Positions 1 through 45,198 of a stretch of 64,000 bases of DNA are shown one piece after another. Source of the DNA: an uncultured Flavobacteriaceae bacterium (GTDB lineage: Bacteria > Bacteroidota > Bacteroidia > Flavobacteriales > Flavobacteriaceae); NCBI GenBank assembly GCA_947486785.1, contig CANKUU010000012.1, forward strand, positions 1 through 64,000, written 5' to 3'. The first letter of the stretch is position 1. Each line of letters begins with the position of its first letter. A program made the position numbers and the translations under genes. The notes beneath the pieces were generated by a model. That model saw only the letters and a list, made by a program, of their open reading frames with translations. It had not been told where the DNA came from and did no database searches.

Positions 1-150
1 CTATCCCCCTGTAAAAGGTAGGTTCCATACGCGGTGCGCACCCGTGCGCCGGTCGTCATCAGTAGCAAGCTACTATGTTACCCCTCGACTTGCATGTGTT
101 AGGCCTGCCGCTAGCGTTCATCCTGAGCCAGGATCAAACTCTTCATCGTT
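1..150 (-). rRNA. rrs: 16S ribosomal RNA, 5' end (partial)
   Basis: Read on the minus strand, 126-146 holds the universal 16S 5' motif AGAGTTTGATCCTGGCTCAG, followed by the GATGAACGCTAGCGGCAGGCC block typical of Bacteroidota 16S and by variable region V1. Only the first ~150 bases are inside the window; the rest of the rRNA operon lies to the left. The mature 5' end is placed at about 150 by analogy with other 16S genes. Transcription comes from the tandem promoters at 380-409 and 527-556. Confidence 0.97.
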
Positions 151-26776: not shown

Positions 26777-29700
26777 TTATCGATATAATGTAAAATGACC
26801 TATAAATTCTCTCTTATCATCCTCACCATTTAGTTTAATTTTGTACCAATAATCTCCTGTTGGTAGATCTGCATCTTCATATAAACCATTCCAACCATCT
26901 TCATTATCTATAATTTGATACACCTTACGGCCGTATCGATCAAATATGCTAATAAAAATATTAGGAAACTGCTCAATGTTTTTTGGCATCCATTTGTCAT
27001 TATTACCATCACCATTTGGGGTGAAGTAATTTGGAATTTCAATATCTATAAACTCCATGTCTATCGTCTCAATTGACTCACAACCATTTTCATCTACAAC
27101 TCGCACTGTATATGTACCGGTTCTTTTTATATAAAAAGTGTTATCCTCGCCATTATCTTTATCGTTGAAATAGTAGGTGTAACCTTCTCTTCCTCCTTCG
27201 GCATTGGCGGTTATTTCATTTAAACCTAATTGCTCTAAAGTCAACACTAACGGCTCATAATCTTCTACTTCAAAATCTATGGTATTCATACAACCATAAG
27301 CATGAACAATTGTTATATAGTGATTACCAGGGCTAAGGTTTTCAAAATTTGGCTCTAAGACTAAGTCTGAAGAGTTTGTTGAGTCTAAGGCGTATAGCAG
27401 GTCTGAAGCAATTGAATCATCTTCAAAAACTAGACTCAAGCGATTATTTGGCGTAGTACCACTACATTCATAAGTGACTTCTGCTGTTGCATTTAAATTC
27501 GCCCCTACTTCAACCGAAATAGCACTATTCGCATCACAACCATTTGCATCGCGAACAAAGATAATATATGCCCCTGCCTGCAAATTGGTAAACAACACTC
27601 GATCTTGAACAAAGCTAGTCTCAGTACTCAATCTAGTGCTATATGGTGCAGTTCCTCCGGTTATATTTACCATAATAGTACCCGCACTATCGCCCGAACA
27701 AATTTCGTGGGTGGCATTTAAGGTTATTTCTAAAGCTTCCGGTTCATTTATCGAAAATTCAACTAGCTCGAAACATCCTTTGCCATCTTGCACGATAACA
27801 GTATAATCGCCAATCGATAAATCTTCAAATGTATTTTTGTTATCAAATTGATTCAAATTAGGTGAAATAGCATATTGATAATCACCCGATCCGCCAGTTG
27901 CTTCGATTACAATTGCGCCATCACTACCTCCATTACAGCTCACCTCGGTGATGGTTGTATTTACAACCAAAAGATCTGGTTCTGTAATTACAACCTCATC
28001 TGAGGTAAGTTCACAATCTTCACTTGTAACACTTACATAATAATTTTGAGAAGAAAGGTCAACAAATGTTCCTGAATTTTGATAAGGTCTAATTACATTA
28101 GTAAGTGCCGCATCGGAGAATAAACCATATTGATAGTTTCCTTTAGCACCGTCAGCATTTGCCTCTATTATCGCAGTACTTTCTCCATTACAGTTAATAA
28201 TCGCCGCTGTAGTATCTACATCTAATGTTAAAGGTTTTAATGCACTAATTTTAATTTCATTAGAAAAAGTAGATATACAATTAAAACTATCTCTAATATA
28301 AAATTGATAGGTGCCTGCAGTAATATTTTGAAATACATGGGTGTTTGGCCCATTTATTCCGTTCATAACATCAAATGTAATGCCATCAGCACTCCACATA
28401 TATGGTGCTTCGCCGCCAGTAGCAGTCAATTGCAATTCGGCATTCGATTTACAACTTAGGCTTGCCAAGGTTACTAACATTCCATGCGTCTCTGTCGGGT
28501 TTACTATTTCAATTCTGTTCGATTCAAATGAACATCCCATATCATCTACAACAGAAATGCTATAAAAACCTGCCCCTTGATTTATGAAATTTGAGGATGT
28601 TTGTGGCGCTGTGCTTCGCAACAATGTACTACCAGTCAAATCGTTAAAAGTATTTAAAACATACCTGTAGTTTGTAGTAACATTCCTCGGGTTAATACTA
28701 AAAGTAATAATCGCATCAGCATCGCCATCACAGGTTAAAGTTGTGGCTGAAATAGTGCCCGAAATAGCATCAGGCACTACCAGTTCAAAAACATTTGTAA
28801 AGTTATTTGTACAACTTAAAGCATCCGTTACCGAAACACTATACTGTCCTGCACCTAAGTTTTGAAATAAGTTCTTATTTACTTGAGTAACATTCGTTGC
28901 TGTTCCGGTTGTCGTATTCGTTAATACTATATTGTAAGGTGCTTCTCCTCCACTAGGCGATATCAAGGCAGTACCTTGATTATTACTACAGCCTACATCG
29001 CTAATTTCAACAGGGTCTAAGCCTATAGCTGCACTTGGAGATGTTATACTAAAAGATCGAACTTGACTACAATTTGGAAAGGCATCTTGAGTAACTTCTA
29101 CCAAATAATTTCCGGCAGGAAGACTAATTGGTAAAGTAGGACCAAAATCTGGCAACATACCTGATATTACAGCCGCTCCATCATCTGAGCGATCATCTAG
29201 AGTACCATTTGTATTGTAAACATTCCAATTAAAACCACCAGTATACGTTGTGTCTGACATTAACAATTTAACACTTCCGTTGTCTCCAAAGCACACCACG
29301 TCTGCTAGTTTTTCAACAGAAACATTAAACGTGTTCGGGTTTGCTACAGTATGATCGATGGTTACTTCACAACCAGTACTTACATTACGAATAGCGAAAG
29401 TATAATTTCCTGGTGACAAATTAGTAAACTGATTTGAATCTTGACTTACGCCAGAAGGCAACTGCCTAAACTTATAATTGGTTGGGTTCGATCCATTATT
29501 GGTAATACTACTTGAAATAGAAATGCTTATATCTTCTACAAATGTACTACAGCTAATTGCATTGTCTACACTAATTGTAGCAGTACCTAAGGCATCAAAA
29601 GCTGGTATTGTAATACTATTTTGTCCGCTACATCCATTGCTATCATATACAATTACGCTTATATCGCCACCTGCAAAGTCGGTAAAAATATAATCCGATT

Positions 29701-32700
29701 CAGTTCCATTTTGCAAGGTATTCCCACTTGCATTATCAACAAATTCGTATCGAACAAAAGTATTTGATCCTCCGGAAATACTCGATGTATTTATAGCAAT
29801 GCGAGCATTGTTTGGGGTGTTCTCACTTGTACATTTGAAGGGTGTAACGGTTGGTGCGTCAAACGTGATTGCATTCGGCTCGTTTACAAGTATATTACTT
29901 TTCACCGTGGTACACCCATTCGGCCCTTTAGCGGTAACTTTATAATTCCCTGGAGGGAGATTTTCATAGGTAGCTTTAGCTGCATTAAAGGTTCCATTAT
30001 TTGGAACTAAGCTATATACCAATGGATTATTTCCATTATTTATTTGCGTCAATACTATAGCGCCATCATTAGCACCAAAGCAGCTAATGGCCTTAGATTC
30101 AGCAGTAAAGTCAGGAACTATCGCTGTAGGAATATTAACAGTAAAAGTCCGCTTACATTCAGGAGAATTCTTCGTGTCATATATATTTACCGTATACGTA
30201 TCCGCAGTACTCACCAAGGCAGTTAGCGGATTACTGGCTAAAGTTTGCCTAGCTACAAAAGTACCCGAGGTATTTACGATATCATATTCGTAATTGCCAG
30301 ATCCTGCTGCAACTTCAATTTTTATTTTTGCTTCAGAGTCTACTCCGCAACCTAAGGCTTTATCCAGGTTAACCGATGCCTGTAAACTTGAGTGAACCTT
30401 AAAGTTTTTTGCCGCTGTACAACCATTACCATCTTTTATTAAAGCGGTATAGCTGCCTACAGGAATATTTTTAAAAATACCATCATTATCAAAATAAGTA
30501 CTACCGGCATCAATAGAGAATAGTATTTTTGCAGGAGAAGCACTCGTTGCTTGTATGGTAACCGTTGCAGATGACCCACAATTATCAACATTCAAATTAG
30601 TAATCTTTGGATTCGGAGCAAGTTTTAAATTGACACTTCCTAATAACGCTGAACATCCAAATTGATCCGCTATGCTAACCATATAGCTTCCCGCTGGGGA
30701 ATTAGCTGCTATTTCAACTGGATTATCTGTAATACCTGTAATCGTTGTAAAGGAAGGTGGTCCACTTATGTTATAGGTAAAAACACCTCCTCCTCCTTGA
30801 ATATTTTCAATAGAGATTATACCTGGGGCTTCACAGCTAATATCTTGTACTACTTTCAAGGTTGCTGTGATCAAATCTAGCTCCTCTATAATCAAGTTTT
30901 CACTGCCACTAATACATTTAGAAAGACCACTTGAATCTACCTGCTGAACTACGATATAGTACTCTCCTTCAGCTAAATTAGTTATACTTATTGTATTGCT
31001 ATAAGGAATGTTTCCTGGACTACTTTTAATTATATTATCGTTGATATCATAAAGCGTCCAGTTCATCATAGGTTCTGTAATACCGTCTGAATCTACAATA
31101 GTATAGTTTATTTCTCCATCGCTAGCTCCATTACATGAAGGTTCATATGAAGCTGTAATTTCCATGGGGTTTGTAGTAATGTCATTAACATTAACCGTAC
31201 TTTGACGCGTACAATTATTAAAATCTTTAACATAAAAAACATAAGTTTTACCAGGTATTAAATTTTCCCATACATACATACCAGCACCAGCTGGAACTGT
31301 ATTGCCTAAATTATCTTGAGATCCACCTGCTTGCCATGATGCGGTTAGGGGGTTAAAATTACCAGGATCATCAGAATAGGCATAACTATATGGCGCAACA
31401 CCTTCACCTCCCTGAACGGTTACTTGCAATTCATTGCACTCAACAACCACAGCAGAAATACTGATATCTAGATCGTCTAAAGGATATGGAATAATAAACG
31501 GATCCAAATCTACTTGGCAAACGGTATTACCAGACGTATCTATGGTTCTCATAGAAGGGTATACTGTACTGCCAGACACATAACCTGTTAAACGATCAGA
31601 AACCCCAGGGTTAGTATTATCCTTTATCCAGGTAGCACCTCCATCGTCACTAAACTCAATGGTACCTAATGTGGTGGGATAGTTATTAAACGCAAAGCCA
31701 AAATCATTAACGTCACCGGTACATGAGGCTGGTGTTATTCCTGTAATATCAGTCGTAAGTTCATCGGGTTGCGTTACAACAACGTTAGAAACGGTTTTAG
31801 AACAACCAGTAGCATCTGTAATAGTCACCGAATAATTACCTGGAATCAAATTAAAGTATGTTTTGGTTGTATTTACAACTGAACTCTGAGTTTGATTTGC
31901 CATCGCATGATCGACATCGACTAACTTGTAGGTATATGGAGCACTACCTTCTGTAATAAGTACCTTAATACTACCCTTTTCACCAAAACAGGTAGGGTTA
32001 GTTGCTTCTGCAGTAAATGCTAAAGGAGGTATATTTTTGAGGGTAACCTTTTGCATAAATTGACAAAACGGTTTAGTACCATTATGATCTCTAGCATATA
32101 CATCATAATCACCAACGGTAAGACTCGTAATCGCAAACACATTTGCTGCCTTAAAATCAGAATCTTGTACTGTTGTACCCGATGTTAAAAATGCATAAGA
32201 ATAATTTCCATCACCTCCAGATGCATTAATAGTTATACTTCCATTTGCACATGAGCTAACATCTACTACATCAATTTCAGCCGTTAACGTTGGCTTAATA
32301 CTAATTGTTTTAAGAGCAGATACGCACCCAAAATCATCGGTAACTTGAATATTATAGCTCCCATTTGACAAACCAGAAAAGGTATACGTAGTGGCTGTAG
32401 AAGGTATGGGAGTTTGCCACGTATTGTCATTAATTTTAAATTTATAATTTCCATTACCCTTAGTTACATCCACGGTTACACTCGCGTTATTTTGACCATC
32501 GTAGCATGCTGTTGCACTTAAATTAAAATCAATTTTTTCAGGTGCATCTACCGTAATTGAATTTGTTGATACAATCTCACATCCTTTTTTATCTTTAACG
32601 CGAACTACATAATCACCCTCAGGAATATTAGTAAATGTTGCATCAGTTTGATAGGTAGCTATAACCGTATTTGAGGTGTTTTCTAATTGGTACTCATATC

Positions 32701-35700
32701 CCGGTGATCCGCCTGATGCAGAGGCTTTTAAAGTTGCACCTGTATTAAAACAGGTATATTCGCCAGTTTGCGCCAATAACGGTACAATTTTAGATGGCTG
32801 GGTTAAAGTTGACGTAAAACTAGTGGTACACGAAGTATCATTTAATCTTCTTATTTGAACCGTATAAGTTCCATCCGCTAAAGTAGCTGCTGTAGTTACA
32901 GGAGAAACTAAAGAAGTGTTCCAATTAGCCCCACCATCAATAGAATACTCAAAGCCTGTGGCCGTGTCAAAATTAGATACTTCAAATCGGATAGATCCGT
33001 CTGAAGCACCATTACAATTAGGATTATTTTTACCCAATTCGTCCGCAACAAACTCTTGATTGTCTTCCACTACAACCGTAATGTCCTGAGTTTTTTCACA
33101 AATATCTGGTATTTGAGAAGCTTGAATATCATCTAAAATTAAATCATTGCCATCGTTACTATTAACGTTTGATTTAAAGACAATATCTATGTTTGTATTG
33201 GCGCCTGGATTAAATGTAATCATTCGCTGATGCCAATCTGTATCCGTTGTATTTTTCGGAATTTCTGAAGTTTCCTTGCTAAATATTAGAGAACCAGAAT
33301 TATCGTATATCTCGACAAGAACTTCTGGATTATTACCAGACCCAGTAACATTCATTAAGTTATATGCCCAAAAATTTATTAAAATTTCTCTATTGGGTAA
33401 AACTTGAACATTTTGTTTTTTCCATAAAACTGTATTTAGTCGCTCAACGCCAGTATCAGAAAAAGTACTGATATCAATTGCTAAAAATCTACCATCAACC
33501 AACCCGGTATGGTCTTTTGGACTTGTAAGGACAGAAATTGGATTCGTAACAAATTTTGTAACTGTGTACTCACCATTCACCAAAATACCCGAAGGACCTC
33601 GGTTACAAGCTACGGTTGAACCATCTTGGGGCTCAAAGCAATAGTCTGGCCCTATCTCTGCGATCATGGTTGTTGGCCCTGCTCCAAAGGTTTCTAAAAA
33701 TAGAGTACTTTGGTTTGGAGCTACGGCACTAGCAAAGCTAACGCTTACCGTATGTGTTCCATTCGAAACAGCATCAAAGACATTTTTACTAGCAGGAGTA
33801 TTATCATTTGCATTAAGTGCATATTCATAGATGAAATCTGTTGTGTTTGATGGCTGTATGGTAATGGTTCCTAATCCGTCACAATCATAGATCACATTAC
33901 TCGTAAAGCTCGGATCTATAGGGCTATTCGGAACTGTGAATTCCATATCAAATGTACAGCCTAAATTATCTTTAATTGAAAGTTGATAGGTACCTGCCAA
34001 TAAGTTTTGGCTAGCATTAGAACTAAAAGTAGTGCCGCCATCGAAACTATATTCGTACGGAGCTTGACCTCCGCTTCCATTTAGAATTTTCACTAAGGCT
34101 CCAGAAGAATTACATGAGGCATCCTCGATGATTGCTGCTGAAGCTGTTAACCTATATGGTTGTGAAATTTCATAGTCAAAACTTTCAACACAACCAATGC
34201 CATTAATACCGCTGGCATCTTTAACCGTAATGGTATAAAAACCAGCAGACAAATTAGCAAACGTTTTTGTGTTTTGATATGTAGCTCCACCATCTAAACT
34301 ATATTGGTATGGAGCTGTTCCACCAGTTACGGTAATAGTCATAGTTGCTGTTGATGCATCTGCACAGTTAATTCCAGAATCGGTTGCTGATATAGCTAAA
34401 ATTCCTAAATCTTCTACACGTACTTCATTTGAAATTGCAAAACATCCATTTCCATCCCTTAAGATAAATTGGTAATCGCCTTCTCTGTTAGGGTTGCCGT
34501 CATTACCAAATAAGAAACTAGCATTCGTTTGAAATTTATCGTCAGGAACTGAATTTTCATTACTGTAAAGCTGAGTTCCATCTTTACTCCATATCGCCAT
34601 TTCATAATTAGGACTTGGCAAGCCACCTGCTGGAGTTAAATTTACAATACCAGGATAACAAGAGATATTTTCAGAAGTTGTAGCTGAAAGAGTGAGCTCT
34701 GGAATTTGAGTTACCGTAATTTTCTTTGAATCAACACAACCGTCTTGCGTGCGTATTATTACAATATAGTCTTCAGGGTTTACATTTAAGAAGGTAAAGG
34801 TATTATCCTTTATAGCGAGCTCATTGCTTACTAGTGTACCTAGCCCACCATTACTACCATCATCTAACCTAAGCTCGTAACTATAGTTTGGAAGTGCGTT
34901 TAATGCAGATATCGAAATTTTACCTAAAGTATTACAATCTGCAGGGGTCATTGTTAGTGTAGTACTAAAATTTATTTCTTTAATACCTATATCTTCCGTT
35001 TCAAAAATACAGCTACCCTCGATTGGTGCATTATTGGAAGGATTTAAAGCTGTAATTTGAACCTTGTACGTACCGCTCGATGAAATATCAAAATTAGGAC
35101 CATTGCTTGCTGAAAAAGGAACAATAATACTGTTATCAACCGCATTTATGAGCTGAAAACCGTAACCACCTTTAACATTGGTAATTCTAATATTACCTGG
35201 TGTAGCACAAAGAATGTCTTTGGAAGTATGCGCTATATCAAGATTATTTTTAAAAACTTTAAAATAAAACCGATTAAAACATCCATTTTGATAGTTAATA
35301 ACAATACGATAGTCTCCTTCATCGGAAATAGTATAATTAGCTGATGTTGCAATGTTGGACCAATTACAAGTCGCATTTTTGTTTGCACAATCTGCAGAAG
35401 CGGCCGAACAACTTCCTTCTTCTAGTTTTTGCCATTCAATACTTTGAGCATCTGAGATACCTAATTGTATAGTAGCTTCATCATTGGCACCACATAAAAA
35501 TATTTTTTGCAAAGCATCACCATCAACTGAACAAGTAGCAATTTCTCCTTTTAAATCATTTTCTGAATTTAGGTCACTATTTACTTTATTAAAATAGTCT
35601 ATAATGGGATTTGTTTGTGTAGTACCAAATCGTTGAACGTTCATAATTTCAATAAGCTTAGGACATGACCCTTCAGATTTTTTTTCTACAATATAAATAC

Positions 35701-38700
35701 CCGGCGTGGTAACTAGTAAAGTCCTTGGATTTGAGTCTGGATCACCATCATTTATAACGGTATCACCAGCATCAATTTGTTTATTTCCATTGGTGTCTAA
35801 AACCCATTTATAACTAGTAAAACCCTTACCGGCTGATAGTATGACGTTTTCTCCGCAGAGTTGTACTTTTTTAGCTTCGTTACAACTAGAAAGATCATTT
35901 CGAATAGAATTATCCGCAGTTTCAGGAGTTCTTGGACAACCTGTAATAGAATTGGATCCCATTTCATCTGTAAATGTATTGGTATTTGTAACACCTTTAT
36001 AGGTTGAATATGCCTTATTAACCAATTGAGAAGAACAGGCATCAACAAAATCAGAACAATTTGATGCAAGTGTTACACGAATACGAATACTATATTTAGG
36101 ATCTCCTACTTCAACCAAATTATTAGGAATAGAGAAACTTATGGTATTGGTATTGATGTCATATGTATGTGTTGTTCCCGGAGCGTTGGTAATATCAACT
36201 TTATCTAATGAAATATTTTTGGGTAAAATATCTCTAATGGTATAATTAGTAGCGCGATCATCACCGGTATTTTGAAATCTTAAAACATATTCAAAAGTTT
36301 GACCTAAACTTAATGCCTGACCATTAATGTTATTTCCCCCAAGGTCTTCCGAAGTATTTCCTAATAAAATTTCAGGTGCAACAACCCTCACATATGATGC
36401 AGAATTTACTTTGCCATTACTTGACTCGACTACAGGAACTCCAGTACCATATTCACCGCCATCACCACCATCGGCAGTTTCGTCTTTATAAAATTCGTTG
36501 GCATCAGAACAACCATCGCCATCACTATCTAAATCTAAATGGTCTGGTATTCCATCTAAATCAGTATCACAATTGGTAGTGTACGAAATACCTCTCATAT
36601 GGGTTGGACCCGCTACTTTTTGTTGAATACTAACGGTATTATTTCCTGACAAATTCCAACTAAAGGTATTCGCTGGAGTTGTTAAAACCATAGGTTCTAA
36701 AGGTCCATTAGAAGATTGGGCGCCAAATAATTGAAATTTTCCAGTTTCATCGACAACAACCCTAATCACAGGGCTTCCAGGTGATCCAGTTATTTTCCAA
36801 ACTTGAGGAATACTATTTTCTCCGTAACTAAACCCATCTAAAAATCTAGCAAGATTTCCTTCGCTATCGTTGTGAAATTGAATTTCACCAGCAATATCAT
36901 TTCCGTTTATTTTAAAGTTGAATGAATTGTCGATAGTAAATATATCAAATATTAGATATTTTTTAACGCCATTCAAATTAGTGACATAGGTATCTCCTTT
37001 CGACAGATTAAAAGCTAAATTGGGACATTCTTGTAGGTCATATACACCATCGTTATCATCATCTAAATCGGTGGTATCATTTACACCATCATTGTCATAA
37101 TCATTATGTACGACTATGTGTGCCGATGGATGATCTGGAGTTGTATTCGAATCGGTTTGATCTTGTGTATTATAGGCTGTATTGGTTAAGCTTAGTAACG
37201 GAAGTGTATCAATTTCATCGGCCTTAACTTTCAATTTCAATATAGCCGTATCACCACCATCTAAGGTACCTATATTCCATGTATTGCCGCTCCAACTTCC
37301 CGAGACGGTAAAGGCTGAGACTAAAGAAAGACCTGTTGGAATATTATCGGTAATTTGTAAATGGGTTACAGGGCCTACCCCTAAATTTCGAACGCGAATG
37401 GTAAAAGTGGCTGTTTCACCTTCTAGTATCTCTGCTTTGTCAATTGTTTTATTCACAATTACATCAGGGTCGCAGTATAGCGCTTGAATGGCATTACTAT
37501 CATAAGTGCATGGCCCTTTAGTTCCACGCACAAAAAATTCACCAGCCCCTTGGGGTGCATAACTTGGTGAGTTTGCCCCTGGAATAGCAACTCCATCTTC
37601 AAACCATTGATATGCATCAAAATTACTCGTTGCTTCAAAAATCTCTGAGCCCACAAAGCAGCCAGATGCACCTCTAATTTCGAGGGTAACCTCGGGTACG
37701 GTATCAAAACCTGAAAAATAACCTGCTACACCTCTTGCACCATTGTAACCAAAAAAACCAATGGCCATGGGGCCGGTTGATTGAATACTAACGTTGCCAT
37801 TTAAATTAGGAATAAAATAGGTTTTCCAATCCGTTGATCCGGCTACTGGATTAGATGCAGGTAAGGTTACTGAGCCATTACCATCCGTCACATGTATGTT
37901 CGCATCTGCTGTGTTTTTCGCTGCAATAATAGTTAAGCCTCCTGAAACTTGGGTACCAGCCATATTTGAAATGTCAGGAATGTTATCCATAACATCTGGA
38001 AGTAAACAATTTAAGGGTGCTACAAAATTTAAACCTTGGGTATAAGCAAGATGTGACCCACCCACACATTGATACGCGTACGCATCTTTTGATGTTTGAA
38101 CAAGCATATTAGCCCCCGCAGTATTTGAGGAATAAAAACTACTTGGAACTTCAAAATATTCGCCATTATTTAAAGTGGCAATTGGCGTTGTTGATCCGTT
38201 TACAAAAATTTGAGTGTTATCTGTGATTGCAATTATTAAGGGAAACTCTGTCCAACCATTAGCGTGTCCATTTCCTCGAACAAAAACATATTCTTTACCC
38301 AATTTATTTTCTGGTACGGGTTGATCGATACCAGCATCTCGATTACCTGAACCCGCTTGTCGACCAAAGTTAATAGACCCATTGCTAATTACAATATTTT
38401 TATCTGCAACTATCGAAGCACCAATCCACCCGTCTTCATGCGCCTTTGTAGGGTTATTTCCAATATAAGTTTCATATACAAACGACTCATTAGCATTTAA
38501 TGTAATTTGATGGATATTGGCTGTAATACCTGCTATATTATTTCCAACCCTAAACTGACAATCGGGGTCGTATCCAAACAAGTTAATCGTTGTATTATCT
38601 TCGGTAGCCATAATACCCAGGGTATTCGACTTTGAAACATGAGACCCTAAGTTGGGTACGCCTCCCCATTTAAATTTCTTACCAAAAGCTTGTCGACCCT

Positions 38701-39103
38701 TAGAAGTCAAAGAAGCAGATTGCGATGCACTACTACCCCGGTAGTTTACATAAAACTTGTTACCGCTGGGTGATTCAAACCGAAGTCCACTATTTTTTAA
38801 AACTTTACCTGTATTACTATTATTTACTAAAATAATATTGTTATCTCCGTTTGACATGTTGTAAACACCTGGAGCTGTATTTGATATGTTAAATGTTGCA
38901 ACAGGAGTGTTACTTGTTCCCCGATATACATTTACCTCAAATAATGTGGGTTCTGGAGTGGATAAATAGACCGCTTGCTCACTAATACCTGCATTATTTA
39001 TACCTTGTTTCAATGGCGGTAAATAATGCAGATCACTTAATTGTGCTTTTACGGATACAACAACTCCAAATACGAAGCAACAAAATAGTATTTTTCTAAT
39101 CAT
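26777..39103 (-). CDS. Giant cell-surface adhesin with SprB-like repeats and T9SS type B sorting domain
   Basis: A secreted protein of about 4108 residues, probably attached to the cell surface. Start 39103 is used because a signal peptide (hydrophobic core, ends near residue 21) begins there; the ATG at 39202 would bury it behind 33 extra residues. Numbering from 39202: an N-terminal region (about 60-570) like the IgGFc-binding/CHU_C-associated module; a DUF11-like domain (about 577-690, VNKTIDKAEILEGETATF); calcium-binding DxDxDG repeats (about 697-720); many ~85-100-residue SprB-like repeats from about 1330 to 4000 (pattern GGxxPYxYSxDGG...YTITVKDxxGC); an inserted jelly-roll-like domain (about 1827-2034); and a C-terminal type B sorting domain (from about 4050, IPNYFTPNGDGNNDKWMPKN...GDYWYKI). 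Export by T9SS is strongly implied. No gliding-motility partners are adjacent. Confidence 0.92.
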   Translation of the reverse strand: MIRKILFCCFVFGVVVSVKAQLSDLHYLPPLKQGINNAGISEQAVYLSTPEPTLFEVNVYRGTSNTPVATFNISNTAPGVYNMSNGDNNIILVNNSNTGKVLKNSGLRFESPSGNKFYVNYRGSSASQSASLTSKGRQAFGKKFKWGGVPNLGSHVSKSNTLGIMATEDNTTINLFGYDPDCQFRVGNNIAGITANIHQITLNANESFVYETYIGNNPTKAHEDGWIGASIVADKNIVISNGSINFGRQAGSGNRDAGIDQPVPENKLGKEYVFVRGNGHANGWTEFPLIIAITDNTQIFVNGSTTPIATLNNGEYFEVPSSFYSSNTAGANMLVQTSKDAYAYQCVGGSHLAYTQGLNFVAPLNCLLPDVMDNIPDISNMAGTQVSGGLTIIAAKNTADANIHVTDGNGSVTLPASNPVAGSTDWKTYFIPNLNGNVSIQSTGPMAIGFFGYNGARGVAGYFSGFDTVPEVTLEIRGASGCFVGSEIFEATSNFDAYQWFEDGVAIPGANSPSYAPQGAGEFFVRGTKGPCTYDSNAIQALYCDPDVIVNKTIDKAEILEGETATFTIRVRNLGVGPVTHLQITDNIPTGLSLVSAFTVSGSWSGNTWNIGTLDGGDTAILKLKVKADEIDTLPLLSLTNTAYNTQDQTDSNTTPDHPSAHIVVHNDYDNDGVNDTTDLDDDNDGVYDLQECPNLAFNLSKGDTYVTNLNGVKKYLIFDIFTIDNSFNFKINGNDIAGEIQFHNDSEGNLARFLDGFSYGENSIPQVWKITGSPGSPVIRVVVDETGKFQLFGAQSSNGPLEPMVLTTPANTFSWNLSGNNTVSIQQKVAGPTHMRGISYTTNCDTDLDGIPDHLDLDSDGDGCSDANEFYKDETADGGDGGEYGTGVPVVESSNGKVNSASYVRVVAPEILLGNTSEDLGGNNINGQALSLGQTFEYVLRFQNTGDDRATNYTIRDILPKNISLDKVDITNAPGTTHTYDINTNTISFSIPNNLVEVGDPKYSIRIRVTLASNCSDFVDACSSQLVNKAYSTYKGVTNTNTFTDEMGSNSITGCPRTPETADNSIRNDLSSCNEAKKVQLCGENVILSAGKGFTSYKWVLDTNGNKQIDAGDTVINDGDPDSNPRTLLVTTPGIYIVEKKSEGSCPKLIEIMNVQRFGTTQTNPIIDYFNKVNSDLNSENDLKGEIATCSVDGDALQKIFLCGANDEATIQLGISDAQSIEWQKLEEGSCSAASADCANKNATCNWSNIATSANYTISDEGDYRIVINYQNGCFNRFYFKVFKNNLDIAHTSKDILCATPGNIRITNVKGGYGFQLINAVDNSIIVPFSASNGPNFDISSSGTYKVQITALNPSNNAPIEGSCIFETEDIGIKEINFSTTLTMTPADCNTLGKISISALNALPNYSYELRLDDGSNGGLGTLVSNELAIKDNTFTFLNVNPEDYIVIIRTQDGCVDSKKITVTQIPELTLSATTSENISCYPGIVNLTPAGGLPSPNYEMAIWSKDGTQLYSNENSVPDDKFQTNASFLFGNDGNPNREGDYQFILRDGNGCFAISNEVRVEDLGILAISATDSGINCADASTATMTITVTGGTAPYQYSLDGGATYQNTKTFANLSAGFYTITVKDASGINGIGCVESFDYEISQPYRLTASAAIIEDASCNSSGALVKILNGSGGQAPYEYSFDGGTTFSSNASQNLLAGTYQLSIKDNLGCTFDMEFTVPNSPIDPSFTSNVIYDCDGLGTITIQPSNTTDFIYEYALNANDNTPASKNVFDAVSNGTHTVSVSFASAVAPNQSTLFLETFGAGPTTMIAEIGPDYCFEPQDGSTVACNRGPSGILVNGEYTVTKFVTNPISVLTSPKDHTGLVDGRFLAIDISTFSDTGVERLNTVLWKKQNVQVLPNREILINFWAYNLMNVTGSGNNPEVLVEIYDNSGSLIFSKETSEIPKNTTDTDWHQRMITFNPGANTNIDIVFKSNVNSNDGNDLILDDIQASQIPDICEKTQDITVVVEDNQEFVADELGKNNPNCNGASDGSIRFEVSNFDTATGFEYSIDGGANWNTSLVSPVTTAATLADGTYTVQIRRLNDTSCTTSFTSTLTQPSKIVPLLAQTGEYTCFNTGATLKASASGGSPGYEYQLENTSNTVIATYQTDATFTNIPEGDYVVRVKDKKGCEIVSTNSITVDAPEKIDFNLSATACYDGQNNASVTVDVTKGNGNYKFKINDNTWQTPIPSTATTYTFSGLSNGSYNIQVTDDFGCVSALKTISIKPTLTAEIDVVDVSSCANGSITINASGGDGNYSYAFLTSGTTVQDSDFKAANVFAITSLTVGDYDVYARDHNGTKPFCQFMQKVTLKNIPPLAFTAEATNPTCFGEKGSIKVLITEGSAPYTYKLVDVDHAMANQTQSSVVNTTKTYFNLIPGNYSVTITDATGCSKTVSNVVVTQPDELTTDITGITPASCTGDVNDFGFAFNNYPTTLGTIEFSDDGGATWIKDNTNPGVSDRLTGYVSGSTVYPSMRTIDTSGNTVCQVDLDPFIIPYPLDDLDISISAVVVECNELQVTVQGGEGVAPYSYAYSDDPGNFNPLTASWQAGGSQDNLGNTVPAGAGMYVWENLIPGKTYVFYVKDFNNCTRQSTVNVNDITTNPMEITASYEPSCNGASDGEINYTIVDSDGITEPMMNWTLYDINDNIIKSSPGNIPYSNTISITNLAEGEYYIVVQQVDSSGLSKCISGSENLIIEELDLITATLKVVQDISCEAPGIISIENIQGGGGVFTYNISGPPSFTTITGITDNPVEIAANSPAGSYMVSIADQFGCSALLGSVNLKLAPNPKITNLNVDNCGSSATVTIQATSASPAKILFSIDAGSTYFDNDGIFKNIPVGSYTALIKDGNGCTAAKNFKVHSSLQASVNLDKALGCGVDSEAKIKIEVAAGSGNYEYDIVNTSGTFVARQTLASNPLTALVSTADTYTVNIYDTKNSPECKRTFTVNIPTAIVPDFTAESKAISCFGANDGAIVLTQINNGNNPLVYSLVPNNGTFNAAKATYENLPPGNYKVTAKGPNGCTTVKSNILVNEPNAITFDAPTVTPFKCTSENTPNNARIAINTSSISGGSNTFVRYEFVDNASGNTLQNGTESDYIFTDFAGGDISVIVYDSNGCSGQNSITIPAFDALGTATISVDNAISCSTFVEDISISISSSITNNGSNPTNYKFRQLPSGVSQDSNQFTNLSPGNYTFAIRNVSTGCEVTIDHTVANPNTFNVSVEKLADVVCFGDNGSVKLLMSDTTYTGGFNWNVYNTNGTLDDRSDDGAAVISGMLPDFGPTLPISLPAGNYLVEVTQDAFPNCSQVRSFSITSPSAAIGLDPVEISDVGCSNNQGTALISPSGGEAPYNIVLTNTTTGTATNVTQVNKNLFQNLGAGQYSVSVTDALSCTNNFTNVFELVVPDAISGTISATTLTCDGDADAIITFSINPRNVTTNYRYVLNTFNDLTGSTLLRSTAPQTSSNFINQGAGFYSISVVDDMGCSFESNRIEIVNPTETHGMLVTLASLSCKSNAELQLTATGGEAPYMWSADGITFDVMNGINGPNTHVFQNITAGTYQFYIRDSFNCISTFSNEIKISALKPLTLDVDTTAAIINCNGESTAIIEANADGAKGNYQYGLFSDAALTNVIRPYQNSGTFVDLSSQNYYVSVTSEDCELTSDEVVITEPDLLVVNTTITEVSCNGGSDGAIVIEATGGSGDYQYAISPNLNQFDNKNTFEDLSIGDYTVIVQDGKGCFELVEFSINEPEALEITLNATHEICSGDSAGTIMVNITGGTAPYSTRLSTETSFVQDRVLFTNLQAGAYIIFVRDANGCDANSAISVEVGANLNATAEVTYECSGTTPNNRLSLVFEDDSIASDLLYALDSTNSSDLVLEPNFENLSPGNHYITIVHAYGCMNTIDFEVEDYEPLVLTLEQLGLNEITANAEGGREGYTYYFNDKDNGEDNTFYIKRTGTYTVRVVDENGCESIETIDMEFIDIEIPNYFTPNGDGNNDKWMPKNIEQFPNIFISIFDRYGRKVYQIIDNEDGWNGLYEDADLPTGDYWYKIKLNGEDDKREFIGHFTLYR

Positions 39104-39164
39104 GCTTAACTTTATTTTACTTTTGGATATAAATCGTCCAAATGCAAAAAAATAGTATGAAAAG

Positions 39165-39193
39165 CTCTTTGACAAAATTTTGTTGCCAAAGAG
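39165..39193. promoter_or_regulatory. Palindrome in the adhesin 5' region
   Basis: CTCTTTG (39165-39171) pairs with CAAAGAG (39187-39193) and encloses the self-complementary ACAAAATTTTGT. It lies 62-90 bases upstream of the preferred adhesin start, in the leader or promoter, and could be an operator or an mRNA hairpin. The function is not known. Confidence 0.4.
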
Positions 39194-39202
39194 TCTCATC
39201 AT

Positions 39203-39667: not shown

Positions 39668-39754
39668 GCACACGTGGCGGAATTGGTAGACGCGCCAGCT
39701 TGAGGGGCTGGTGGCCATTAGGTCGTGGAAGTTCGAGTCTTCTCGTGTGCACCA
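39668..39754 (+). tRNA. tRNA-Leu (GAG anticodon)
   Basis: A class II tRNA of 84 bases plus an encoded CCA (39752-39754): acceptor GCACACG with CGTGTGC, anticodon stem CCAGC with GCTGG around loop TTGAGGG (anticodon GAG), a variable arm, and T arm GAAGTTCGAGTCTTC. It is followed by a terminator that begins within the CCA. Confidence 0.97.
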
Positions 39755-39793: not shown

Positions 39794-39840
39794 AAAAATA
39801 CAAATTGACAAAATACTTTTATTTAAGAATAATTAAAAAA

Positions 39841-39872
39841 TTTGTTACTTACTTCGATAGATTCTAGGTTTG
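39841..39872 (+). promoter_or_regulatory. Promoter of the carotenoid operon
   Basis: TTTG (39841-39844), a 20-base spacer and TAGGTTTG (39865-39872), an excellent consensus match. The predicted start near 39879 is about 20 bases before the regulator's ATG (39899). It presumably drives carH-like, crtI, crtB and crtZ, and is the likely target of the encoded regulator. Confidence 0.8.
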
Positions 39873-39898
39873 CATTACCATGTTTTTAAAAGAATAGG

Positions 39899-40795
39899 AT
39901 GAACAATGTGAAAAAACAATTTAGTATTCGTGATTTAGAGAACCTATCCGGAATAAAAGCTCATACTATACGTATATGGGAAAAACGCTATGGATTACTA
40001 ATACCAGAACGTACGTCTACAAATATTAGAACCTACAGTTTAGTTAGTCTTCAAAAGCTGTTGAATATTACCCTACTTTATAATCACGGACACAAAATTT
40101 CTAAAATAGCCAAAATTCCGGAAGAGAATATACCACTTATCGTGCGAGAAATTGTTGCTAAAAATAGCGTTAAAAATCACGCAATTAGTGCTTTTAAACT
40201 AGCAATGATCAATTTTGATCAGTCACTTTTTGTTAGCACTTTTAATAGCATCATGGTTAATCGTACTTTTAGAGAAGTATTTAAAGATGTTTTTATTCCT
40301 TTTCTTAATGAATTAGGATTGCTTTGGCAAACCAACAGTATTAGCCCTGCTCATGAACACTTTATAACCGGTTTAATTAAGCAAAAATTAATAGTAAGCA
40401 CAGAAAGATTAGAGTTGCAAACAACAAAGACCGACAAGGTATTTGTTCCCTTTTTACCTGAGAATGAAATTCACGAGATTGGACTTCTATATCTAAATCA
40501 TGAAATAGTTCTTCATGGATACAAATCAATATACCTTGGGCAAACCGTACCTTTAGAAACTTTAAAAGATGTTATGCAATACTTTGATAATATACATTTC
40601 ATTACTTATTTTACAGTTGCCCCTTCGAAAGATAAACTTGAAAAATATATCGAAGATTTTTCTGACTTGGTTAGTGGTTACAGCAGTAATAAATTATGGG
40701 TTTTAGGGTATCAAACCCGACATTTAGACAATTCTAAATTGCCTAACTACATTTCAACATTTAATTCTATTGATCAAGTAATTAAAGAATTGTAA
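39899..40795 (+). CDS. CarH-like MerR-family regulator with B12-binding domain
   Basis: A 298-residue regulator with an N-terminal MerR helix-turn-helix (about 8-75: FSIRDLENLSGIKAHTIRIW, EKRYGLL.PERT) and a C-terminal cobalamin-binding module. The middle domain carries W-x9-EH (LLWQTNSISPAHEHF), the CarH motif that caps adenosylcobalamin, and the Rossmann part has E-I-H-E-I-G, the E/DxHxxG lower-ligand histidine. The later SxL and GG motifs are not obvious. In Thermus and Myxococcus such proteins repress carotenoid genes in the dark and release DNA in light. Here it is the first gene of the crt operon, 2 bases before crtI, supporting the same role by inference. Confidence 0.85.
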   Translation: MNNVKKQFSIRDLENLSGIKAHTIRIWEKRYGLLIPERTSTNIRTYSLVSLQKLLNITLLYNHGHKISKIAKIPEENIPLIVREIVAKNSVKNHAISAFKLAMINFDQSLFVSTFNSIMVNRTFREVFKDVFIPFLNELGLLWQTNSISPAHEHFITGLIKQKLIVSTERLELQTTKTDKVFVPFLPENEIHEIGLLYLNHEIVLHGYKSIYLGQTVPLETLKDVMQYFDNIHFITYFTVAPSKDKLEKYIEDFSDLVSGYSSNKLWVLGYQTRHLDNSKLPNYISTFNSIDQVIKEL

Positions 40796-40797
40796 AA

Positions 40798-42258
40798 ATG
40801 CCAAAAAAAATAAGCATCATTGGATCAGGTTTTTCATCATTATCAGCCGCCTGTTATCTTGCAAAAGCGGGATATGAAATTACTGTTTTTGAGAAAAACA
40901 TAAAGCCTGGTGGTAGAGCAAGACAACTAAAACGAGATGGCTTTACCTTTGATATGGGACCTAGTTGGTATTGGATGCCCGATATATTTGATAAGTTTTT
41001 TGCAGACTTTAATAAAAAAACAGCTGATTATTATTCATTAGATCAACTAAGTCCGGCCTACAAAATATTTTTTTCAGACGATATTATTACCATAGGTGAT
41101 AGCTTAGAAAAAATTAGTGAAGAATTTGAGCGCATAGAGCCTGGTAGTTCTAAACCATTGAAAAAATTCATTTTAAAAGCAAAAGAAAATTATAGTATTG
41201 CGATTGACAAAGTGGTACTAAGACCCGGTATTAGCCCTTTTGAACTGGTAACTAAAGAGACTATTCTTAAGGTAGATCAATTCTTTAAAACTATAAGTAG
41301 TGAGGTTCGAAAGAACTTTAAAAACAAAAAACTTATCTCAACGCTTGAATTTCCAGTACTTTTTTTAGGGGCTAAACCTAATAAAACACCGTCTTTCTAT
41401 AATTTTATGAATTTTGCTGACTTTGGTTTAGGTACATGGCACCCTAAGGGAGGCATGTACGAGATTATTAAAGCGATGTTATCACTAGCAGAAGAATTAG
41501 GTGTAACCATACACACAAATTCGGCAGTAGAAAAAATAAATATAGAAAACCGATGTGCAAATGGGGTTACTATAAAGGGTAAAACTATTTTCTCAGATTA
41601 CGTTTTAAGCGGTGCAGATTACCACCACTCTGAGACTTTACTTTCTAAAGAATATCGCCAATATTCAGAGAAATACTGGTCAAAAAAGACATTTGCACCA
41701 TCGTCATTACTATTTTATATTGGTTTTAATAAAAAACTTCGTAATATAGAGCATCACAACCTGTTTTTCGATACTGACTTCGAACAACATGCTGAGGAAA
41801 TATATGATGAGCCAAAATGGCCAACAGATCCAATGTTTTACGCAAATTTTCCTTCAGTAACTGATGAAAGTATGTCCCCAACAGGTTGCGAAACTGGTTT
41901 CTTTTTAATACCCATAGCGCCGGACTTAGAAGATACACCAGAATTAAGAGAACAATATTTCAACCTTATGATGAAGCGATTTGAACAAAAAACAAAACAA
42001 ACTGTTAAAGATCATATTTTGTTTAAAGAATCTTTTTGCGTTAGCGATTTTCAAGAAGAATACAATTCATATAAAGGAAATGCCTACGGTATGGCAAATA
42101 CGCTTTCACAAACTGCATTTTTACGTCCAAAATTAAAAAGTAGTAAAGTAAAAAACTTATATTTCACAGGGCAATTGACCGTTCCTGGGCCAGGAGTGCC
42201 CCCCTCCTTAATTTCAGGAAAATTAGTTTCTGAACTAATTATTAAAGCAAATAAATGA
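40798..42258 (+). CDS. crtI: Phytoene desaturase
   Basis: FAD-dependent carotenoid desaturase that converts phytoene to lycopene through several double-bond insertions. The 486-residue product has the N-terminal dinucleotide-binding fold (IIGSGFSSLSAACYLAKAG...VFEKNIKPGGRA), the conserved GPSWYWMPDIFDKFFADF segment, and the CrtI C-terminal signature LYFTGQLTVPGPGVPPSLISGK. The start ATG is 2 bases after the regulator stop, and crtB overlaps its end by 4 bases (ATGA), so the four genes are translationally coupled. Membrane-associated, with FAD as cofactor by family. Confidence 0.95.
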   Translation: MPKKISIIGSGFSSLSAACYLAKAGYEITVFEKNIKPGGRARQLKRDGFTFDMGPSWYWMPDIFDKFFADFNKKTADYYSLDQLSPAYKIFFSDDIITIGDSLEKISEEFERIEPGSSKPLKKFILKAKENYSIAIDKVVLRPGISPFELVTKETILKVDQFFKTISSEVRKNFKNKKLISTLEFPVLFLGAKPNKTPSFYNFMNFADFGLGTWHPKGGMYEIIKAMLSLAEELGVTIHTNSAVEKINIENRCANGVTIKGKTIFSDYVLSGADYHHSETLLSKEYRQYSEKYWSKKTFAPSSLLFYIGFNKKLRNIEHHNLFFDTDFEQHAEEIYDEPKWPTDPMFYANFPSVTDESMSPTGCETGFFLIPIAPDLEDTPELREQYFNLMMKRFEQKTKQTVKDHILFKESFCVSDFQEEYNSYKGNAYGMANTLSQTAFLRPKLKSSKVKNLYFTGQLTVPGPGVPPSLISGKLVSELIIKANK

Positions 42259-43094
42259 AAAGTATCTTTGATCAAGTCTCCTATGATTGCAGTAAAATTG
42301 TAACCCAATCTTACAGCACATCGTTTTCTTTAGCTACTAAAATGCTAAGCGCTAAAATTAGACCCGATATTTACAATATCTATGGCTTTGTACGTTTTGC
42401 AGACGAGATAGTTGACACTTTTCATGAGTACGATAAAACAGCATTATTTAACAAGTTTGAGGCAGACCTAAAAGATGCACTTGAATTTAAAATTAGTTTA
42501 AATCCTATTTTAAATTCGTTTCAGTATACCTTTCACAAATATCAAATACCCTTTCATCTGGTGCAATCTTTTATGAAGAGTATGCGAATGGATCTTGTAA
42601 AAAACAACTACCGAAGCCAAGAAGAATACAAAGAGTATATCTATGGATCTGCTGACGTTGTTGGCCTTATGTGCCTTAAAGTTTTTGTCAATGGAAATGT
42701 GACCAAATATGACTCTTTAAAAGCTTCGGCAATGGCTTTAGGTTCGGCTTTTCAAAAGGTAAATTTTTTACGTGATTTAAAGGCTGATTTCGAAGATTTA
42801 AATAGAGCCTATTTTCCGCATGCTGATTTAAACGATCTTAACGAGCACTCGAAACAGCAAATAATTACCGAAATAGAAGATGATTTTAAAGCCGCCTATG
42901 AAGGAATTTTAAAATTACCCAACGAGGCTAAATTTGGTGTTTATACCGCTTATAGATACTATTATAAACTATTGCAAAAATTACAGAATACTCCTTCTAT
43001 CGAAATAAAAAATACTAGAATTAGAGTGCCAAACTATCAAAAATTTGGTCTTCTAGCAAAATCATACGTTAACTACAAATTACATTTAGTTTAA
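42255..43094 (+). CDS. crtB: Phytoene synthase
   Basis: Condenses two geranylgeranyl diphosphates to phytoene, the committed carotenoid step. The 279-residue product shows both aspartate motifs of squalene/phytoene synthases: DEIVD (about 56-60, in FVRFADEIVDTF) and DLKAD (in NFLRDLKADFEDLNRAYFP). SYSTSFSLATKML at the start is the typical N-terminal helix. It overlaps crtI by 4 bases and precedes crtZ by 1 base. Confidence 0.95.
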   Translation: MKSIFDQVSYDCSKIVTQSYSTSFSLATKMLSAKIRPDIYNIYGFVRFADEIVDTFHEYDKTALFNKFEADLKDALEFKISLNPILNSFQYTFHKYQIPFHLVQSFMKSMRMDLVKNNYRSQEEYKEYIYGSADVVGLMCLKVFVNGNVTKYDSLKASAMALGSAFQKVNFLRDLKADFEDLNRAYFPHADLNDLNEHSKQQIITEIEDDFKAAYEGILKLPNEAKFGVYTAYRYYYKLLQKLQNTPSIEIKNTRIRVPNYQKFGLLAKSYVNYKLHLV

Positions 43095-43095
43095 A

Positions 43096-43542
43096 ATGAA
43101 AATTATTCTTTGGTTGCTTATATTTTTTGGTACATTCTCGCTAATGGAATTTATGGCTTGGTTTACGCATAAATACGTCATGCATGGTTTTTTATGGGTT
43201 CTACATAAAGATCATCACCATAAAGACCATAACTCTTGGTTTGAAAGAAACGACGCATTTTTTATATTTTATGCAGTTGTTAGTATTTCGTTGTTTTATT
43301 CTGGCGCAAACGGATGGTGGCCTGGGTGGGCTTTGGGCTTTGGAATTTTAGCTTACGGAATTGCTTACTTCCTAGTTCATGATATATTTATACATCAAAG
43401 GTTTAAGCTTTTTAGAAATGCAAACCATTGGTATGCGAAAGGAGTTAGGCGCGCGCATAAAATTCATCATAAACATTTAGGAAAAGAAGATGGTGAGTGC
43501 TTTGGAATGCTTTTTGTTCCTTTTAAGTATTTCAGAAAATAG
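43096..43542 (+). CDS. crtZ: Beta-carotene hydroxylase
   Basis: Di-iron membrane hydroxylase that adds 3-hydroxyl groups to beta-carotene to give zeaxanthin. The 148-residue product has the histidine clusters of the fatty acid hydroxylase/CrtZ family: HKYVMHG, HKDHHHKDH, HDIFIHQRF and HKIHHKH, and about four membrane segments. It is the last gene of the operon, 1 base after crtB. The substrate requires a lycopene cyclase (CrtY), which is not in this window. Confidence 0.94.
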   Translation: MKIILWLLIFFGTFSLMEFMAWFTHKYVMHGFLWVLHKDHHHKDHNSWFERNDAFFIFYAVVSISLFYSGANGWWPGWALGFGILAYGIAYFLVHDIFIHQRFKLFRNANHWYAKGVRRAHKIHHKHLGKEDGECFGMLFVPFKYFRK

Positions 43543-44634
43543 GGCCACATAGACCTCTTTTAGCGTATTTTGAGTCTGTTTTTAAAAAATTTGATATCCT
43601 TACTATTCATTACATCTATCTATTTAGGCACTTTCAGCAGTAAGCCAATTTTTTAAAATAGGATTGATTAAAAATTCTTTTGAATTTATTTTTGGGGCAT
43701 TTTTTTTATGTTTTTACAAGTCCTTTTTTCAAAGCTATAGATTTGAAACTTGATTCGAGTAAGGTTTTTAGCCAGTCAGCCCTTTGTGTTGTTTTTAATT
43801 TTTGTTTAGGCAACCTGTTATAGCTCTCTTTCTAGTCTCCTTCCAATTTGGAGGACATTTGCAGGAAGCGGCACCGAGAAAAATACACATAGTATTTCCG
43901 TTTGCTTGGCGCTAGCCATTATCATTTTTTGAGAGGGTAATGCTCTTTTTTATAGCTAAAACAACCCTAGAAGCGTGAGACTCTATCTTTATTAATGATA
44001 TCGGACATTTAATTTCGTTGCTTTTCGTGCTTGCCAGCCCTTCACTTTGATTTGAAATCAGTCCTGATATTGAAACCTTCTACTCTTATGGGTATTATAT
44101 ATGCCATCTGCGCCTTCCAATCTGGAATTTGCCCTAGTGAGTCTTTGTGCTTTGAATAGGGCATCTCGAAAACGATTGCTCTCACGGAAAACCTTCAAAC
44201 ATCCATGTTCTAAGAAGCTGACACTGTCTATCTGGCATTGATTCACCTTGGGACCGAATTCAAAGGGCTAAATCTCTTTTCCGAGGGCAATTAGGCGCAA
44301 GTAATTCTTGTGGACACCCACGATACTCTTCCTATCCAAAAATAAAATACGTTTAGTTAAGGCCTCCTTATTAAAGATCTTATACATATGGCAAGTTAGT
44401 AAGGTATTACGATTACCACTTATAGGATAAAACTAATCGAGTTTAACTTGTGCTTTAGTAAAGAAAAAAATATATGGAATGTGGTTACAACAACTAAAAA
44501 AAATAGAAACTACTTTTTAATCTAGCTTCGCAACTAATCAAGAACTAACAGTAGAAATATAAAATATAGAGGAATAATAAGAGGTGTATAACAGCAAAAG
44601 CTACTTTTCGTATTTTGTATGGTACCTTGGTTAA
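43543..44634. other. Gene-free region with degenerate repeat copy B
   Basis: About 1.1 kb between crtZ and the convergent thioredoxin-like gene. It holds copy B of the degenerate element (43626-43970) and a 62-codon minus-strand frame (44058-44246) with no recognised family. No clear terminator was seen for crtZ. Confidence 0.55.
43626..43970. repeat. Degenerate dispersed repeat, copy B
   Basis: Aligns in the same orientation with copy A at 5732-6065 over ~340 bases; shared blocks are listed there. Neither copy encodes an intact protein. Confidence 0.7.
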
Positions 44635-45198
44635 TTATTCTGCAATAAGACGATCAATTAAGCTATGCACTTTCTTATTATTCCAATCTTTAATTTCATC
44701 TGTTCTAACGACTACCATACCTTTCTTATCTATCAAGTATGAAGATGGCATTAATTCTGTTTCTATTGGAGCTGGGGAGCCAATTATCAAATAGGTTACT
44801 GGAAATGTAAACTTATTTTCTGCCATAAACTTTTCAACAGGGGCTCGCTCTTCATTAGTAATAATATAAAAATCTACTTGATCACCATAGGTATTGTACA
44901 GCTGTTGAATGTCTGCTAATTCGGCAGCACACGGCAAATGCCACGAAGCCCAAAAATTGATAAAAACAACCTTTCCTCTTGAGCGATTAAAATTAAAAAA
45001 GTTCCAATTTGCATCCTTTAACTTCCATTCATAATTAGAGAGGGTCTCTCTTTCGGCAGCAACAACCTCTACAGGGCTAAATGAAAACAGCGAATTTAAC
45101 CATACTTTAGAATGATAACCTAAAGGAGTTATAAAAAAGGAGAGTACTAAAGCAATTATTAAAAGGGTATAAACTGTTTGTTTTTTCATAAGCTTCAT
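44635..45198 (-). CDS. TlpA-like thioredoxin-fold protein with atypical active site
   Basis: A 187-residue membrane-anchored or exported protein: hydrophobic segment about 10-27, then a thioredoxin fold starting VVFINFWASW near residue 80. Where TlpA/ResA proteins have W-C-x-x-C, this one reads WHLPC: the first cysteine, normally the attacking nucleophile, is histidine, so classic disulfide exchange is not expected. The cis-proline region MPSSYLIDKKG near 153 is conserved. It lies downstream of acn on the same strand behind a terminator hairpin. The role may be chaperone-like, or the single cysteine may be enough for a different chemistry. Confidence 0.8.
   Translation of the reverse strand: MKLMKKQTVYTLLIIALVLSFFITPLGYHSKVWLNSLFSFSPVEVVAAERETLSNYEWKLKDANWNFFNFNRSRGKVVFINFWASWHLPCAAELADIQQLYNTYGDQVDFYIITNEERAPVEKFMAENKFTFPVTYLIIGSPAPIETELMPSSYLIDKKGMVVVRTDEIKDWNNKKVHSLIDRLIAE

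Follow-up and report, generated by a model that had tools for sequence, protein, structure and literature searches.

Introduction

CarH of Thermus thermophilus, an adenosylcobalamin (AdoCbl) photoreceptor of LitR/CarH class I, combines a MerR-type DNA-binding head with a four-helix cap and a Rossmann-like domain, carries the motifs W-x9-EH and E-x-H-x-x-G, and is linked to carotenoid genes. All these features recur in a predicted regulator encoded at the head of a carotenoid (crt) operon on contig CANKUU010000012.1 of an uncultured Flavobacteriaceae bacterium (assembly GCA_947486785.1), of which we analyzed positions 1 to 64,000 (the whole stretch of 64,000 nt is hereafter called the window). 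This protein is most likely a variant of the CarH/LitR-type light switch, a function that we infer from its sequence and its modelled structure. It differs from Thermus CarH in having Gln in place of His132, Tyr in place of the Ser of the tail motif and a single Gly in place of GG, and in lacking the Arg176-Asp201 pair (the dimer bridge) as well as the tandem 11-bp operator. Likewise, it is the first gene of its crt operon, whereas carH of Thermus (pTT27) and the adjacent phytoene/squalene synthase gene are divergently oriented. His132 forms, as the upper ligand, the bis-His light state of Thermus CarH and is present in many, but not all, class I members.

A His at this position is also missing from CtMerR of Chloracidobacterium, a Foldseek match of the model of the window regulator, and from the photocobilins SasPcob and AbDPcob, all of which are AdoCbl light sensors; the photocobilins also hold biliverdin. 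Although SasPcob carries Gln at the position of His132, it is reported to be an AdoCbl photoreceptor (PMC11796333), and by this analogy the Gln would be compatible with light sensing. The window regulator agrees with the signature of these light-responsive cobalamin domains (GxxW, EH, GxxH, GxxxP) in three of the four elements, the deviation being Asn (N189) for Gly in GxxH. In Streptomyces, LitR is reported to switch on the extracytoplasmic function (ECF) sigma factor LitS in light, which then transcribes the crt genes (PMC12705666). This pairing of a B12-type MerR regulator with an ECF gene is shared by 13 of 28 other Bacteroidia loci, where the ECF gene lies between regulator and crtI, but not by the window and its 80 nearest related loci.

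B12-independent relatives have been described as well. CarA of Myxococcus xanthus (PMC9304148) has lost the Trp and flanking residues of W-x9-EH but kept the tail motif, the opposite of the pattern reported here; class II LitR of Pseudomonas, which acts together with a LOV partner (PMC9758184), retains the four-helix domain alone, whereas the model of the window regulator also has the Rossmann-like domain. In the sections of the latter paper considered here, LitR classes I-V are described without Bacteroidota. That a MerR gene precedes crtI in flavobacteria is already in print: the gene occupies the same position in Nonlabens spongiae (PMC11855829) and Sediminicola (PMC4732338), and the corresponding sections of these two papers contain neither a link to CarH or B12 nor a test of the gene. 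A functional study of this regulator family was not found in the literature searched, which mostly excluded subscription papers.

Results

The four plus-strand open reading frames (ORFs) of the operon encode the regulator, a crtI-type desaturase, a crtB-type phytoene synthase and a crtZ-type carotene hydroxylase (Table 1). Their coordinates reproduce the gaps of 2, -4 and 1 nt given in the original prediction, which had been made from the sequence alone; Pfam and NCBIfam also agree with the gene families named there for regulator, CrtI and phytoene synthase, while the crtZ-type ORF, for which no NCBIfam match was obtained, is identified as CrtZ by context. A collection scan yielded 214 loci encoding relatives. 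The best 80 of these, from Flavobacteriaceae such as Maribacter, constitute together with the window a near set of 81 sequences, with 65-80% identity to the window regulator. The spacing between regulator and crtI is 0-43 nt in all 80 related loci, and the order crtI-crtB-crtZ follows the regulator in 78/78 loci where all three enzymes were found, the contigs of L050 and L074 (loci are designated by L numbers) ending too early for the full order. The linkage of regulator and crt genes is thus far beyond chance.

Pfam detected MerR_1 (PF13411) and B12-binding_2 in the regulator, and its recognition helix R25-I-W-E-K-R-Y31, where Lys replaces the first Arg of ERRY, is invariant in 54/54 aligned sequences. 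In the AlphaFold model built from this 54-sequence alignment (mean predicted local distance difference test score, pLDDT, 84.7), the four-helix cap and the Rossmann-like domain are both present, and Foldseek supports this assignment: the top 12 matches in the PDB are Thermus CarH chains (5c8e/5c8d/5c8f; E 4e-12 to 2.5e-9), followed by CtMerR and CarH cobalamin domains. CarH was found by sequence search as well (E about 1e-11). A CarH-type regulator at the head of a crt operon, as originally predicted, was hence borne out by domains, Foldseek and gene order. With the NCBIfam equivalog NF052513, the regulator scored 71.2 bits versus a cut-off of 400, Thermus CarH 510.2 bits. PF02310 matched neither the regulator (E <= 0.001) nor any of three near relatives to which it was also applied (E <= 0.1); Thermus CarH itself stays below the cut-off of this family (25.4 vs 32.1 bits).

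Conservation of pocket residues was read from the MAFFT columns of the family alignment for the 81 near sequences. The equivalents of Thermus CarH Trp131, Glu141-His142, Glu175, His177 and Gly180 are kept in all of them, so that W-x9-EH (W143, E153, H154) and E-x-H-x-x-G (E190, H192, G195) were correctly recognized at the outset. Replaced throughout the same set are His132 by Gln, Arg176 by Ile, Asp201 by Thr, Ser or Ala, Ser222 by Tyr and Val224 by Thr; in the window, I191 and T216 occupy the Arg176-Asp201 positions and the salt bridge is absent. In other words, alignment with Thermus CarH finds cap and axial-ligand residues unaltered but tail motif, His132 and dimer bridge changed. From the full CarH tail motif (D/ExHx2G/P - x41 - SxT/V - x22-27 - GG), only the axial part is found, with Tyr for Ser at equal spacing. 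SxL is indeed absent at the expected spacing (Y237, T239), as had been claimed, but the claimed loss of GG needs correction: one Gly is gone and one (G270) remains, where the assignment of which Gly was retained depends on the alignment. Y237, F238, T239, G270 and Q272 are constant in the 54 aligned sequences, and Y237 is preceded by Ser in 53 of them and by Thr in the window, resulting in the patterns S/T236-Y-F-T and G270-x-Q. Since the pocket pattern is present in all 81 near sequences, it is not a quirk of the window's genome, and since the tail replacements are fixed across the group and not drifting, the tail pocket appears to have been remodelled instead of having decayed. By the features compared, the regulator is not a CarH: it departs from CarH in tail motif, dimer bridge, operator and equivalog score, while agreeing with it in head, cap and axial ligand. 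The losses of His132 and of the dimer bridge, together with the Bacteroidota-type promoter and the ECF sigma gene of the wider family described below, go beyond the original prediction.

In a tree of 67 sequences, the 60 Bacteroidia regulators form one group (support 100/99), with Thermus CarH, L130 and L129 on long branches that make the rooting and their own placement unsure. The His132 equivalent is missing in all 60 members, and its loss is therefore not special to the window's genus. The axial His is kept in all of the 48 members that are crt-linked. The other 12 have no crt link within the fetched stretch (L118 being cut by a contig end), and five of them (L120, L126, L127, L129, L130) have lost the axial His, each together with Trp and/or Glu-His. 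Members that have the axial His all keep Trp, and all but L095 (Glu-Gln) keep EH. Trp, Glu-His and axial His are thus retained or lost jointly, as would be predicted for elements of a single binding site, and this pattern suggests that the regulator still binds a ligand. The genes for L120, L126 and L129 adjoin, instead of crt genes, a GT4 glycosyltransferase that resembles BshA by eye; Pfam assigned the neighbours of L120 and L129 to GT4-type families only.

The 'one consensus promoter' of the original prediction, TTGACA-17-AATAAT, did not hold up. Among 98 upstream regions, this sigma-70-type site reaches 11/12 matches in the window only (10/12 in five others), and it was rejected as the operon promoter for lack of conservation; the upstream region contains 28 promoter-like sites versus 25.4 +/- 4.8 in shuffles. 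Flavobacteria are reported to use TAnnTTTG as their -7 box (PMC9723704). In 73/80 related loci, this motif has its 3' end exactly 21 nt upstream of the ATG, and a site of this type is the likelier promoter. The consensus of the relatives' promoter, TTGTAAATTTGTTTAAC, carries a GTTTAA extension past the -7 box, which may act as an operator positioned at the start site or just belong to a strong promoter. The 13-base sequence TAnnTTTGTTTAA has 71 copies at regulator promoters and a single further one across the 949,501 bases that these loci comprise. The window deviates from this pattern: it lacks GTTTAA, and with TAGGTTTG located 26 nt before the ATG, its -7 box is shifted by 5 nt, the operon being intact. 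In the congeners, the start was found in 10 of 11 cases and GTTTAA is kept in 10/10, two lying behind apparently the same tRNA-Leu (by eye).

The CarH operator (tandem 11-bp nnnnTnnACAn repeats) was not detected upstream of the regulator, the longest run being one in 98/98 regions of 120 nt; a relaxed motif gave a run of two in 2/98. TnnACA pairs spaced 8 bp apart occur 51 times on the minus strands of these regions, where they may merely reflect the promoter core TTTGTTTA. A search for a wider regulon with the exact sequence TAAATTTGTTTAAC was abandoned, as the 25 genomes searched contained 7 sites, of which the window's genome has none, versus 8 sites for the reversed control; two of the seven lie at the regulator by coordinates and two others in genomes outside those searched for the regulator. 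Being at control level genome-wide, this 14-mer marks the regulator promoter, with no wider regulon shown. No cobalamin riboswitch was found in the window at Rfam gathering thresholds.

Beyond the near set, 15 of the 28 other Bacteroidia loci have an ECF sigma gene next to the regulator (seven of the encoded sigma proteins were checked with Pfam). Apart from the 13 loci with the gene between regulator and crtI, it is divergent in L115 and stands without crt genes nearby in L102. None was found beside the regulator in the window or the near loci (0/80). In 3/19 intermediate loci (L097, L099, L100), a divergent gene upstream of the regulator matches ECF sigma factors more weakly (E 8e-13 to 8e-16); parts of the family may thus have retained the sigma link. 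It is plausible that a two-step regulator-ECF system was shortened to one step, although the tree is not securely rooted. An ECF sigma gene (E 3e-48) also lies close to the gene for L138, a Bacteroidota MerR regulator that is more distantly related. The branch of L118, L121 and L128 adjoins a secreted protein with a fasciclin domain (by Pfam in L121, by eye in L118 and L128), beyond which crt genes follow in L121; carotenoid-binding fasciclin proteins are known. In a survey of the phylum, 51/198 genomes matched the profile at E <= 1e-10, a count that includes more distant and non-MerR relatives. The regulator is present in 12/14 genomes of the window's genus, the two without it being 57% and 85% complete.

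The source genome (3.57 Mb, 136 contigs) encodes elsewhere a member of the lycopene cyclase family, needed to finish the pathway, as well as one cobalamin adenosyltransferase and two B12-domain proteins; the adenosyltransferase gene (66818-67330) shares its contig with the crt operon, from which it is located ~23 kb downstream. No second sensor of this regulator family was detected in the genome at E <= 0.01. Rhodopsin gave no match either, in a search whose control also matched nowhere. With regard to the surroundings of the operon, 33/80 related loci (L003-L082) have a second desaturase-like gene beyond crtZ. The window has no ORF of >=80 aa at 43543-44634, and tblastn with the neighbours' ORFs gave no match for a decayed gene in 43543-44640. 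Just 5' of the tRNA-Leu gene, the minus strand encodes a 4141-aa repeat protein (26777-39202) whose end resembles, by eye, a gliding-motility/type-9-secretion C-terminus; positions 1-149 (minus strand) hold the 5'-terminal part of a 16S rRNA gene that is truncated by the window edge.

Table 1. Position of the crt operon, its upstream elements and the codons of pocket residues within the window.
Feature	Position	Strand	Basis
tRNA-Leu(gag), directly 5' of operon	39668-39754	+	ARAGORN, Rfam
Sigma-70-type TTGACA-17-AATAAT, probably not promoter	39805-39833	+	11/12 matches; alone that high among 98 upstream regions
Likely promoter: TTG (39842-39844), N20, TAGGTTTG (39865-39872); 26 nt before start codon	39842-39872	+	Pattern scan, TAnnTTTG type
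CarH/LitR-like regulator, 298 aa; MerR DNA-binding head, four-helix cap, Rossmann-like C-terminal domain (modelled)	39899-40795	+	Pfam MerR_1 and B12-binding_2; AlphaFold; Foldseek
W143 (Trp131 of Thermus CarH) and Q144 (light-state ligand His132)	40325-40330	+	W 81/81, Q 81/81
E153-H154 (Glu141-His142 of Thermus CarH)	40355-40360	+	81/81
E190-I-H192-E-I-G195, axial-ligand motif; I191 at CarH Arg176 (dimer bridge) position	40466-40483	+	H192 81/81, I191 81/81
Y237-F-T239, at CarH tail-motif Ser position	40607-40615	+	Y 81/81, T 81/81
L269-G270, at CarH GG position	40703-40708	+	MAFFT columns; G270 and Q272 invariant 54/54
crtI-type desaturase, 486 aa (NCBIfam CrtID, bifunctional phytoene desaturase/3,4-desaturase)	40798-42258	+	NF058655, 721.7 bits, cut-off 640
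crtB-type phytoene synthase, 279 aa (squalene/phytoene synthase family)	42255-43094	+	PF00494, E 2.4e-44
crtZ-type carotene hydroxylase, 148 aa (fatty-acid-hydroxylase superfamily)	43096-43542	+	PF04116, E 1.6e-9; CrtZ by context

Discussion

We tentatively favor, as a reading that falls just short of probable, that the operon functions as a dedicated carotenoid switch that regulates itself, under CarH-like light control; from protein family and gene order we infer that such a light switch would be self-contained, as the original prediction had envisaged. In the dark, the regulator would probably be loaded with an adenosylated corrinoid, with the axial His192 below and the Trp143/Glu153-His154 cap above, and would sit on or near its own promoter, thereby repressing merR-crtI-crtB-crtZ. 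Light would break the cobalt-carbon bond and release the regulator from the promoter. As Gln144 replaces His132, the light state could not be the known bis-His state of Thermus CarH; lacking also the dimer bridge and having an apparently rebuilt tail pocket, the regulator would be expected to differ from CarH in corrinoid form, oligomer and release step. The original suggestion that the chemistry is altered or that a different ligand is bound is a fair reading of these residues. In a more far-reaching scenario, a large Bacteroidota lineage would sense light via a CarH-type regulator in which selection had reshaped the tail pocket for another corrinoid state or chromophore, with release independent of bis-His and dimer bridge, and here simplified from a regulator-ECF-crt cascade to direct control; this we regard as conceivable, yet doubtful.

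CarH-like light control of the operon draws support from the Foldseek ranking, the invariance of W, EH and axial His in the near set, the position of crtI directly behind the regulator in 80/80 loci, the near confinement of TAnnTTTGTTTAA to regulator promoters, the ECF sigma gene in 15/28 other Bacteroidia loci, the adenosyltransferase and B12-domain proteins of the genome, and the Gln of SasPcob. Several other observations weigh against it. The H132A variant of Thermus CarH is reported to mostly stay tetrameric in light (PMC10442372), and the fixed replacement of the tail Ser and one Gly could mean that no cobalamin is bound at all. In the hhalign alignment to CarH (probability 98%), profile positions 6-231 of 299 are aligned and the remainder is not. 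On the DNA side, the CarH operator is absent, the window promoter is devoid of the GTTTAA extension of most relatives, and the exact 14-base motif is genome-wide no commoner than its reversed control. The association of axial His with crt linkage (Fisher p 1.5e-4) speaks for such control, but its strength is overstated by this value, because two losses suffice under parsimony and a single one is enforced by supported branches. B12 supply was discarded as a discriminator: the adenosyltransferase is encoded in 42/42 regulator-bearing genomes tested (42 of 51, the nine more distant ones being left out), but is common anyway (30/41 regulator-free genomes, 41 of 147), and the contrast is weak since 9 of the 11 misses belong to one family. 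Finally, no light or B12 data were found in the literature for any family member.

Some of these points would fit a regulator that no longer binds a corrinoid and senses light indirectly via a partner photoreceptor or a stress signal, for which CarA and class II LitR with its LOV partner are precedents. Such a loss is in line with the tail motif being changed in 81/81 near sequences, with the failure of PF02310 to match the regulator and the three near relatives, and with the disappearance of axial His and cap residues from L120, L126, L127, L129 and L130. However, the pattern of CarA is reversed (Trp lost, tail motif kept), class II proteins keep the cap alone whereas a Rossmann-like domain is modelled here, W, EH and the axial His are invariant in the near set, and Thermus CarH falls below the PF02310 cut-off as well. 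We consider loss of corrinoid binding rather unlikely, albeit an explanation to be taken seriously. Less probable in our view is a rebuilt pocket that senses another ligand instead of AdoCbl, be it a tail-less corrinoid, heme, a bilin or an intermediate of the carotenoid pathway. A new specificity would predict the invariance of Y237, F238, T239, G270 and Q272 in 54/54 sequences, but cap and axial positions carry the same residues as in CarH and the sequence provides no evidence for any of the named ligands.

It is also conceivable, though quite improbable, that the protein is an ordinary constitutive or growth-phase regulator of crt genes with a vestigial sensor domain, light playing no part. 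The divergence of the window promoter from its kin would agree with this, as would the lack of a light experiment on any member in the literature found; yet a vestigial domain would hardly be expected to show W, Q, E, H and the axial His without exception in 81 sequences that share 65-80% identity with the window regulator.

Light control of flavobacterial carotenoids is an open issue. In Chryseobacterium lacus, the yellow color is reported to develop in light only, and car or lit genes were not detected by the authors according to the part of that paper considered here (PMC7064467). For other flavobacteria, the regulator family described here is a concrete candidate with named residues. If the regulator works as a CarH-like light switch without His132 and the standard tail pocket, it would separate the essential parts of B12 photoreception from peculiarities of Thermus CarH and, in this case, would offer a differently built green-light switch.

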